From assembly GCA_022786605.1 (NCBI GenBank), contig JALFWW010000017.1:39547-103546 (forward strand): 64,000 nucleotides of DNA. Direction: 5' to 3'. The stretch is from Clostridia bacterium (lineage in GTDB: Bacteria; Bacillota; Clostridia; Lachnospirales; Anaerotignaceae). The translations under genes were made by a program, and so were the position numbers. The notes beneath the pieces were generated by a model, which was not told the origin of the DNA, ran no database searches, and was given only the letters and a program-made list of their open reading frames with translations. Shown piece after piece: positions 58,603-62,293 of the stretch (its first letter is position 1; each line of letters starts with the position of its first letter).

Positions 58603-61320
58603 TTACAGCAGTTCGCCGTATTTACGGATATACAGTTTTTTCATGATGGTTGCCAGTGTCACATAAGCAAGGATGATGCCTGCCAGCCATGTGAAGTATA
58701 CGGGAGGCAGTGCTGCCAGACCAATATGTGCGCCGAAGGGCAGGAAAGGAATGGCTGTCAGTACGGCAATGCCAGTGAATGTCAGCAGTACAACGGGAAC
58801 GGAAGCACGGCTGCGCAGGAAGGGCAGTTTGGGTGTGCGGATCATGTGAATGACCAGAGTCTGGCTCCACATGGATTCTACAAACCAGCCTGCCTGGAAC
58901 AGTGCGATGAACAGTGTCTGGGATGCGGGGTCCAGGCTATGGAAGGAACCGCCGCATACGGCAGGACAGATCACGAAGTACATTACCAGATAAGTTACGA
59001 TGTCAAATACGGAGCTGGTGGGTCCGATCCACAGCATGAATTTGCTGACAGAAGAAGCATCCCATTTCCGAGGTTCTTTCAAAAATTCTGCGTCTACATT
59101 GTCCCAAGGAATTGCGGTGCAGGAGATATCGTAGATCAGGTTCAGCAGAATCAGATGGATAGAAGCCATAGGCAGGAAAGGCAGGAATGCGGATGCTGCC
59201 AATACGGAGAACATGTTCCCGAAGTTGGAGGAAGCTGTCATTTTGATGTATTTGATCATGTTGGCATAAGTTTTTCTGCCTTCGATGATGCCCTGTTCCA
59301 GTACCATCAGGTCTTTTTCCAGCAGGATAACATTTGCGGATTCTTTGGCGATATCCACAGCTGTATCTACGGAAATGCCTACGTCAGAGGCTTTCATGGC
59401 TGCGGCGTCGTTGATACCATCCCCCATGTAGCCAACGCTGTGACCGTTTTCACGGAGCAGAGTTACCACTCTTGCTTTCTGCAGAGGAGAAAGTTTTGCG
59501 AAAATGGTGGTGTTTTCCGCTGCTTTTGCCAGTTCTGTGTCTGTCATATCATCCAGCTGGTCACCTGTGAGGATACGGTCTACGGACAGACCTACCTGTT
59601 TGCAGATATATTTTGTTACTTTTTCATTGTCACCTGTGAGGATTTTTACGGCTACACCGTATTCCTGCAACGCTTTGACTGCGGCAGCGGTGGTTTCTTT
59701 GGGAGGATCAAGGAATGCCAGATACCCAATGAGAACCATGTTGTTTTCATCCGCTACAGAGAAGGCGCCAACAGGGGAGGGATTTGTTTTCTGGGAAATA
59801 CCCAGTACACGCATACCGTTGTTGTTCAGGTCATTTACTTTTGCCAGAACCATTTTTTTCATTTCGTCTGTCAGTTCTACCACTTCGCCATGGTATTCCA
59901 CAAAGGAGGAAATGGACAGCATTTCTTCGATGGCGCCTTTTGTGATCATCTGTGTTTTGCCTTTTTTGTCCGCAACGACGATGCTCATGCGGCGGCGTTC
60001 AAAATCGAAGGGGATTTCATCTACTTTTGTATAGTTGTTTTCCAGTACGGCAAAGGCAGGTACTTTTTCGATGAGTGCGTGAGTCCGTTCGATGATGGCT
60101 TTATCCATAAGGTTTTTCAGCCCTGTCTGGTAGTAGCTGTTCAGGAACGCGTGACGCAGGATGCGGTCATCTTCTTCGCCCATAACATTCAGGTGATATT
60201 CCAAAGCTACTTTGTCTTTTGTCAGTGTGCCGGTTTTGTCAGTGCACAGAACGTCAATGGAACCCAGGTTCTGGATGGCGTTCAAGTCTTTGATGATGAC
60301 TTTCTGGCGGCTCATGGCAACGGCGCCTTTTGCCAGACAGGTAGTTACGATCATAGGGAGCATTTCCGGTGTCAGACCAACAGCAATGGAAATGGCAAAG
60401 AGGGCTGCGTTGAGCCAGTCCCCTTTGGCAAAGCCATTCAGGAACAGTACGATGGGTACCATGATGAGCATGAAGCGAATCAGCACCCAGGAAACAGAGT
60501 TTACGCCTTTTTCAAAAGAAGTTTTCGCGGGTTTTTCAGACAGGTGTTTTGCCATATCGCCCAGCATGGTGTCGTTGCCCGTTGCGATCACAACGCCTGT
60601 TGCGCTGCCGCTGATAACGTTGCTGCCCATGAAAGCCAGATTGGATGCTTCTGTGATGGCACCTGTGATTTTCTGTTTCTGAGGCAGTTTTTCTACGGGT
60701 TCGCTTTCGCCTGTCAGAGCAGACTGGCTGATAAACAGGTCTTTTGCTGTTACGATACGCAGGTCCGCAGGAATCATATCGCCGGCAGACAGAGTAACGA
60801 TGTCGCCTACAACGATTTCATCCATGGGGATTTCCTGTGTGCCGTGATGTTTTCTGGTAACGGCTGCTGTTGTGTGAATCATGGCAGACAGTTTCGCTGC
60901 CGCGTTGCCGCTGCGTGTTTCCTGTACAAAACGCAGGATACCGGATACCAGTACCATAACAGTGATGATGATAACAGTTGTGGCATCTTTTTCGCCGGGA
61001 GCTGCCCAGATGATTTCTGTGCAGGCGGAAACCAGTGCCAGAACAAATAAGATTGCGGTAAAAGGATTGATGAATGCGTTGCAAAGTCTTTTGAAAAGAG
61101 ATTCTTTTTTGCCATGGGTTACGTTGTTGTCACCATGAAGTTCCCGCAGTTGTTCCACCTGTTCGTCTGTGAGACCTTCCAGAGAAGTGTTCAACGCAGC
61201 AAATACATTTTTTCTGGAATTTTCTGCGGCAAATTTCAGTCTGTCATTGATCTGATCGCGGCGAACCATGTCTGCTGCGATTTTTGTTTTGAGGATTCTT
61301 TCTTTCAATGTTTTTTTCAT
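58603..61320 (-). CDS. mgtA: Mg2+-translocating P-type ATPase MgtA/MgtB
   Basis: [11 protein letters not shown] phosphorylation motif; [39 protein letters not shown]3B-type C-terminal TM region. Confidence 0.95.
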
Positions 61321-61390
61321 AGGTCCGTACCTCCATATTCTTAGATTTTTGTGGTTTTGGATTGTACAGACAAAAACAGAGAACGATGAT

Positions 61391-61477
61391 TCAAAGCGGA
61401 AGCATGTCCGCGGGAGGACGTTCATCCCCTTGCCTTCGTTCTGTTGTTTTTGTACTGCTACTGCCTTCTGCGTCCAT
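61391..61477 (-). CDS. Putative leader peptide ORF 2 upstream of mgtA (28 aa)
   Basis: [51 protein letters not shown]. Confidence 0.5.
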
Positions 61478-61556
61478 GCTTCTCACCTCGCTTTTTTGAT
61501 TGGAATGATCTGTGAAAATCCTGAAATCAGAGGGATTTTTCTGAAAAAAGGGCGCA

Positions 61557-61631
61557 AAAAAAACACCGCATGAAAACTATGTTTTCAAAATTTTGAAACA
61601 GCCCAATAAAAGGGCAGTGGAAAAGCGGTGC
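61557..61631 (-). terminator. Terminator-like hairpin between the two mgtA leader ORFs
   Basis: Minus strand GCACCGC...GCGGTGTTTTTTTT with a long loop that itself contains GCCC/GGGC and AAAAC/GTTTT pairings. Confidence 0.6.
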
Positions 61632-61668
61632 AATGCCAATTTTTCGATCTTAGATTTTCAGAAAGAAA

Positions 61669-61770
61669 CTAGAGTACGGATACAGATGTCATGCCCATCT
61701 GTTCCATAAAACAGTTTGAATGGTTTGCCCGCTGGATGGAGTTGTAATTGTCTGGATGACCTGCGTCCAT
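61669..61770 (-). CDS. Putative leader peptide ORF 1 downstream of M-box (33 aa)
   Basis: AAAAAAGAGGTGAGATC-ATG; MDAGHPDNYNSIQRANHSNCFMEQMGMTSVSVL*. Confidence 0.5.
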   Translation of the reverse strand: MDAGHPDNYNSIQRANHSNCFMEQMGMTSVSVL

Positions 61771-61792
61771 GATCTCACCTCTTTTTTACATA

Positions 61793-61828
61793 AAAAAAAT
61801 CCGTACAAACTCGAACGGTTGTACGGAA
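61793..61828 (-). terminator. M-box terminator
   Basis: Minus strand TCCGTACAACCGTTCGAGTTTGTACGGATTTTTTTT. Confidence 0.85.
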
Positions 61829-62012
61829 AAATAAATGCCATTTCATAAAAAATGCAACCGTTTCGAGCTTTAGCTCTGCAGGGCGGTGAAACTGCATTAT
61901 GCTACACCTTGGTTTCGATGTAACCTGTTCAAACCATCGCATGATGTCTCCATCATTTTGCGGCAGCAGTCCATATCCCTGTAGTAGCCTTACCTACCGG
62001 AACTATTCTTTT
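61797..62012 (-). promoter_or_regulatory. M-box (ykoK) magnesium riboswitch
   Basis: Minus strand CCGGTAGGTAAGGCTACTACAGGGATATGGACTGCTGCCGCAAAATGATGGAGACATC...ATGCAGTTTCACC..GCAGAGCTAAAGCTC; upstream of mgtA. Confidence 0.92.
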
Positions 62013-62293
62013 CGAGTTCATCATACGCCCATAGGAAGGATTTGTCAACGGTTTTTCGAAAAAATTAAGATTTTCCACAGGAAAAGTAGGAAATGAAATT
62101 CTTTTTTTACATTATAATATTTTGTATATCAAAAATCTATTGGAATATTGACTACAAAAATGGTTTTGATGTTCAAATGCGTTTTGAATGATATGGGATA
62201 TGTAAAAAAAGGAAATGAGATAAAGAAAGCGAAATAAATGAGTAAGGGAAATTTTTATGATAATTCAAATAGCTGAGAAAAGGAGTGTGGGCT

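Follow-up and report, generated by a model that had tools for sequence, protein, structure and literature searches.

The mgtA leader in the window (the whole 64,000-nucleotide stretch of Clostridia bacterium DNA that was analysed) probably carries two translation-operated switches downstream of its M-box riboswitch, such that low Mg2+ would abort the translation of two short upstream open reading frames (uORFs) and turn mgtA on at both levels. We put the probability of this reading at about 0.6. Comparative sequence analysis provides the evidence for the uORFs, for coding selection on them, for the predicted complementarity between three RNA segments (A:B and B:C) and between an antiterminator and its terminator, and for the specificity of the arrangement for Mg2+ transporter genes. 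Under the proposed mechanism, the cell would take faltering protein synthesis to indicate a shortage of Mg2+.

Anatomy of the mgtA leader

The leader lies on the minus strand and contains, in order, a promoter, the M-box, terminator 1, uORF1, terminator 2, uORF2 and mgtA. Its features are as follows (SD, Shine-Dalgarno; MFE, the MFE fold):

62020..62048, minus strand: sigma-70 type promoter of the leader, TTGACA-17-TATGAT, read from the sequence
61846..62008, minus strand: M-box (ykoK) Mg2+ riboswitch aptamer, Rfam RF00380, 92.4 bits, E 5.5e-20
61792..61826, minus strand: terminator 1, the M-box expression platform, CCGTACAAcc..TTTGTACGG-T8, hairpin of -11.2 kcal/mol
61669..61770, minus strand: uORF1, MDAGHPDNYNSIQRANHSNCFMEQMGMTSVSVL, with D2; SD GAGGTGA at 61781-61775
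61725..61733, minus strand: antiterminator AGCGGGCAA within uORF1 (codons 13-16), pairing with TTGC(A)CCGCT at 61633-61624
61556..61631, minus strand: terminator 2, GCACCGC...GCGGTGTTTTTTTT, 5' arm 61631-61625, 3' arm 61569-61563, T8
61391..61477, minus strand: uORF2, with D2 and E4; SD GAGGTGA at 61489-61483; match to model R1 (below) of 36.6 bits
61437..61455, minus strand: segment A, GTACAAAAACAACAGAACG, inside uORF2, complementary to B
61364..61385, minus strand: segment B, CGTTCTCTGTTTTTGTCTGTAC, 3' of the uORF2 stop, pairing with A or C in a mutually exclusive manner
61322..61334, minus strand: segment C, GGAGGTACGGACC, the mgtA SD; the MFE of the full leader pairs B GTCTGTAC with C GTACGGAC
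58603..61320, minus strand: mgtA, Mg2+-importing P-type ATPase, TIGR01524 1157.9 bits, NF011702

The M-box score is well above the gathering score of 44 bits for the RF00380 covariance model, and both sequence and folding place an intrinsic terminator (61826-61792) directly 3' of the aptamer. The terminator 2 hairpin stretch folds at -25.0 kcal/mol in the window and recurs at the same position in relatives. The sequence-only reading had located the M-box, its terminator, both short ORFs, the second U-tailed hairpin and mgtA from the letters alone, and all of them are present at coordinates that are exact or a few bases off. Its claim of layered control of mgtA also holds, as a predicted arrangement of an M-box plus two leader-ORF tiers. 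The nearest named homologue of the window's MgtA is from A. lactatifermentans (98%), and the genome is Anaerotignum-like. Contig C5 of this genome (G000) carries two more tandem MgtA-like genes, at loci L015 and L010. Directly downstream of the window's mgtA is a T-box leader (RF00230, 103 bits; 58527-58292, minus strand), which lies upstream of a TrpB-like gene (58222-56837). Elsewhere in the leader set, a gene for an OmpR-like winged-helix protein, whose receiver domain is apparently missing when judged by eye, stands beside or between mgtA paralogues (L004, L005/L012).

The near-identical starts of the two uORFs had been taken to imply duplication of a regulatory unit. The identity itself is real, in that a repeat search of uORF1 against uORF2 returns a 15-nt SD region followed by ATGGACGCAG, but this is the sole shared stretch and the likeness is confined to the SD and the first codons. 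Duplication of one unit is not supported because the two uORFs belong to different predicted switches: uORF1 to an antiterminator/terminator switch and uORF2 to an SD-masking switch.

Two predicted switches operated by translation

In the proposed mechanism, ribosomes translating uORF1 would cover the antiterminator (codons 13-16), so that terminator 2 forms and mgtA is off; if ribosomes are lost early in uORF1, the 5' arm of the terminator would be paired with the antiterminator instead and mgtA would be on. At the second stage, ribosomes translating uORF2 would cover A, leaving B to pair with the mgtA SD (off), and when A is free A:B would form and release the SD (on). At low Mg2+, ribosomes would drop off at the acidic N-terminus (D2 and E4 in uORF2), freeing both A and the antiterminator. 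We infer that the uORFs are translated and that ribosomes drop off at low Mg2+, and likewise the sign of the regulation: switching-on at both stages by low Mg2+ is suggested by the acidic-start precedents of MgtL and MgtQ, discussed below, and by D2 and E4 in uORF2.

Evidence for the first switch comes from 20 two-terminator leaders, in which the stretch separating the terminators holds a segment that can pair with the terminator 2 5' arm (often AACGATGG with CCATCGTT). Pairing is stronger within a locus than across loci (-18.6 versus -16.0, permutation p 1e-4), with a mean z of -1.7 against shuffles over the 20 loci. Depending on the uORF1, the antiterminator RNA reads as Asn-Asp-Gly, Lys-Arg-Trp or Arg-Arg-Trp; since one RNA yields differing peptides, its conservation is that of an RNA and not of a peptide. 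Folding of the window's free leader gives the antiterminated form, and terminator 2 forms when a ribosome is placed over the antiterminator. Across 16 loci the same placement raises the equilibrium terminator probability from 0.78 to 0.93 (11/16, p 0.04), an effect that is only modest because many of the terminators form anyway. Other M-box mgtA leaders also carry, at the position of uORF1, uORFs with Asp or Glu at codon 2. In one leader (L017) uORF1's own SD, AAGGTGGTGA, is complementary to the terminator 2 5' arm, CCACCGCCT.

In the second switch, segment A consists of early uORF2 codons (for example GGAAGTAGCAGCGGCATAAACC) and is complementary to segment B, 3' of the uORF stop (for example GGTTTATGTTGTACTTCC). 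Segment B is also complementary to C, the transporter SD, and the GGAGGTACAGACC context is conserved across genera. In one leader (L144), B (GTTTTATGTC) matches both a uORF stretch (GACATAAAAC) and an SD-side stretch (GGCATAAAA). In the mgtA leaders, pairing within a locus is stronger than pairing across loci both for A:B (-38.9 versus -30.2, n=42, permutation p 2e-4) and for B:C (-15.4 versus -14.0, p 4e-4). The same difference is found in mgtE leaders (A:B p 1e-4, B:C p 0.013), which lie outside the set in which the A/B/C pairing was first worked out. Base composition as the cause of this difference is countered by dinucleotide shuffles and by a control segment. Scored in restricted windows against dinucleotide-shuffled B, A:B has a mean z of -2.55 in mgtA leaders (Stouffer -16.9, n=44) and of -1.58 in mgtE leaders (Stouffer -5.9, n=14), as against 0.01 and -0.03, respectively, for the segment upstream of the uORF. 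At some loci (L045, L078 and L131, for instance) A:B is no better than shuffles.

Blocking A lowers the predicted accessibility of the SD from a mean of 0.284 to 0.157, with a decrease in 36 of 44 mgtA leaders (p 3e-7), although many of the 36 decreases are small and at several loci the prediction hardly changes; when a stretch of the same length between A and B is blocked instead, the mean stays at 0.287. When the window leader is cut before the SD, A:B is the MFE fold. In the full-length leader of the window and of the near-identical L016, B:C persists at equilibrium with A blocked and with A free alike, which means that for the window the switch has to be taken as kinetic and co-transcriptional. 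Mutually exclusive pairings, one of which masks a ribosome binding site, are supported comparatively, with the window's own equilibrium fold favoring B:C.

The uORF peptides and their association with Mg2+ transporter genes

Short ORFs with a strong Shine-Dalgarno sequence are in large excess before mgtA. In 76 MgtA leaders of 500 nt each, from which near-identical loci had been removed, 42 ATG short ORFs preceded by an SD with at least 7 matching bases were found, versus a mean of 0.6 in dinucleotide shuffles and 2 on the reverse strand; 38 of the 42, at 36 loci, have Asp or Glu at codon 2, against shuffle means of 0.075 such ORFs and 0.05 such loci, and 0 on the reverse strand. The carriers belong to Clostridia, to Negativicutes (Megasphaera, L059; Phascolarctobacterium, L018) and to Lactococcus (L072, L081, L091). 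Conservation of the uORF starts and their SDs in relatives, on which the sequence-only reading had staked its claim, is borne out by this comparison.

A consensus start, M-[DE]-[ATSP]-[GDE]-S..., emerges from 52 uORF2s. Codon 2 is Asp or Glu in 50 of them (GAC 19, GAA 19, GAT 11, GAG 1), a count that is biased since most were picked for Asp or Glu at residue 2, so that the unbiased test of this residue is the shuffle and reverse-strand count in the 76 leaders. Codon 3 is NCN in 49/52, with first and third positions free (Ala, Thr, Ser, Pro), and residue 5 is Ser or Gly, again in 49/52. Differences between similar uORF2 pairs are distributed 27/25/48% over codon positions 1/2/3. Such codon-periodic variation is what a reading frame under selection leaves behind, and by this comparative measure uORF2 is under coding selection. 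The C-terminal halves of the peptides show no conservation among the 52. The conserved features are the N-terminal acidic residues and the RNA complementarity within the ORFs, and not a proline-rich C-terminus.

A first pattern search of 391 genomes returned 7 matches, 2 before mgtA and 5 before mgtE, and the reversed pattern returned 0; in relatives of the window's genome the majority of matches lie before mgtA, and the four exceptions fall within genes or in unrelated sequence. Model R1, a sequence-only model of 59 positions, was then built from 48 uORF2 starts. Applied to 393 genomes of the class, it placed 29 of its best 30 matches directly before mgtA (6) or mgtE (23); 7 of the 29 correspond, by genome, to training loci of the model, which leaves about 22 as new. 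Among the matches in 300 genomes of the phylum, all 8 besides the window's own likewise precede mgtA or mgtE. Overall (about 690 genomes), 37 of the 38 matches examined stand immediately 5' of mgtA or of mgtE, which is unrelated to mgtA, and the single exception (L143) is weak, at 22.9 bits. Among the matches examined, the predicted uORF2-type switch is specific for Mg2+ transporter genes. A different second uORF, MgtL-like and of the form [MV]D(P/F/S)..PLP, occurs just before mgtE at L129, L130, L135 and L137; examples are MDFDPLPSNF and VDPVPLPVNF, and these uORFs overlap the hairpin GTAGTTATGG/CCATAACTAC.

The main rival to peptide-specific drop-off is a general loss-of-translation sensor, in which the uORF switches respond to initiation defects, antibiotics or subunit dissociation, Asp or Glu at codon 2 merely tunes initiation, and Mg2+ specificity comes from the ribosome's own need for Mg2+. 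In its favor, any absence of ribosomes would turn both switches on, GAN at codon 2 might in part serve initiation, and the acidic motif is weak in many uORF2s, which have a single acidic residue near the start (MDAGSS...) and are in this respect weaker than MgtL. However, the NCN codon 3 with its free first and third positions, together with the use of all four Asp and Glu codons, points to the peptide, and R1 matches are confined to Mg2+ transporters; we consider a general sensor unlikely.

Less probable still is a classical leader-peptide attenuation, in which ribosome stalling at prolines or through the nascent chain, and not drop-off, sets the switch. Proline occupies residue 11 in 33 of 52 uORF2s, the window's uORF2 contains PP, and tandem leader ORFs control the Salmonella mgtCBR operon (PMC3641672), where mgtP is stated to respond to charged tRNA-Pro (PMC8092293). 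But a ribosome stalled at residues 4-14 would have the wrong sign for induction by low Mg2+, since A would be covered and the SD kept masked. The proline-containing, 10-residue tail of uORF2, to which attention had been drawn at the outset, is present as described; it fails as a conserved feature or sensor, being restricted to near relatives, as is PP, which recurs in L003.

That the M-box is the sole regulator, with terminator 2 and the uORFs incidental or the uORFs encoding small functional proteins, is hardly credible: the M-box is high-scoring and has its own terminator, but in 18 of 20 uORF-bearing mgtE leaders no M-box reaches the gathering score, a uORF occurs without a detected M-box at least at L010, L038, L050, L052 and L056, the peptides lack conservation in their C-terminal halves, and the A/B/C pairing would be unaccounted for. 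One of these loci, L010, is in the window's own genome, where a second mgtA follows a uORF beginning MDADGSPRRQ.... Among mgtA leaders, 15 of 20 have an M-box at gathering score. Rfam has no family over the region from uORF2 to mgtA or mgtE at gathering score (in the window, up to E 1), and the only families that reach their gathering scores are M-box, T-box and tRNA.

Relation to known leader peptides and implications

Control of Mg2+ transporters by uORFs is already known in enterobacteria, and the proposed analogy to the Salmonella and E. coli leader peptides is upheld. In MgtL, which precedes enterobacterial mgtA, acidic Glu2 and Asp4 cause ribosome drop-off and permit mgtA expression, as proposed for low Mg2+ (PMC11282234). 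The predicted uORFs before the window's mgtA share with MgtL a short ORF and acidic N-terminal residues (D2 and E4 in uORF2, D2 in uORF1). MgtL differs in its Rho-dependent termination and EPDP motif, whereas the window leader has an intrinsic terminator, an antiterminator inside uORF1 and an additional SD-masking switch, with no overall sequence similarity. In Salmonella MgtQ, between mgtC and mgtB, Asp2 and Glu5 favor translation of mgtB through altered stem-loops at the mgtB ribosome binding site (PMC8092293). The predicted uORF2 switch has in common with mgtQ an acidic uORF and alternative stem-loops that unmask a Mg2+ transporter's ribosome binding site when translation of the uORF is cut short. 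However, mgtQ has 8 codons, a four-segment design (1:2/2:3/3:4) and a position in the operon interior, whereas the uORFs described here have 25-46 codons, a three-segment A/B/C design and a place in the 5' leader, in Bacillota, before both mgtA and mgtE; given these differences in length, sequence and operon position, uORF2 does not qualify as a homologue of mgtQ. The Salmonella mgtCBR leader, with its mgtM and mgtP attenuators, likewise has a pair of short ORFs ahead of a Mg2+-transport operon (PMC3641672), but both attenuators operate at the level of transcription, with ATP and charged tRNA-Pro as their signals. The M-box of M. tuberculosis pe20 is also followed by conserved uORFs (PMC12810186); its expression platform, in contrast, is translational with Rho, and its known likeness to the window's leader is one of layout.

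The literature searched yielded no description of the uORF2 peptide family or of the three-segment RNA design, no instance of either before mgtE or in Bacillota, and no Gram-positive report of a uORF-controlled Mg2+ transporter; the search covered open-licence papers and is a weak indication of absence. On balance we lean towards the view that these leaders encode a widespread and hitherto undescribed class of leader peptides in Bacillota, with the ribosome itself acting as the Mg2+ sensor. Abortive translation of acidic-start uORFs at low Mg2+ would open the ribosome binding site of genes from two unrelated families of Mg2+ transporter and, in tandem arrangements, also block a terminator, with the mgtE leaders mostly lacking an M-box.

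If true, nascent-peptide sensing of Mg2+ would extend from enterobacteria to a large part of Bacillota, with a distinct and clearly readable RNA design common to mgtA and the unrelated mgtE. The design would offer a possible route of control for mgtE genes in which no riboswitch is detected. The natural variants in A, B, C and the acidic codons would provide material on how peptide sequence destabilizes ribosomes, and with a riboswitch, one attenuator of transcription and one of translation combined on a single mRNA, their relative thresholds could be measured.
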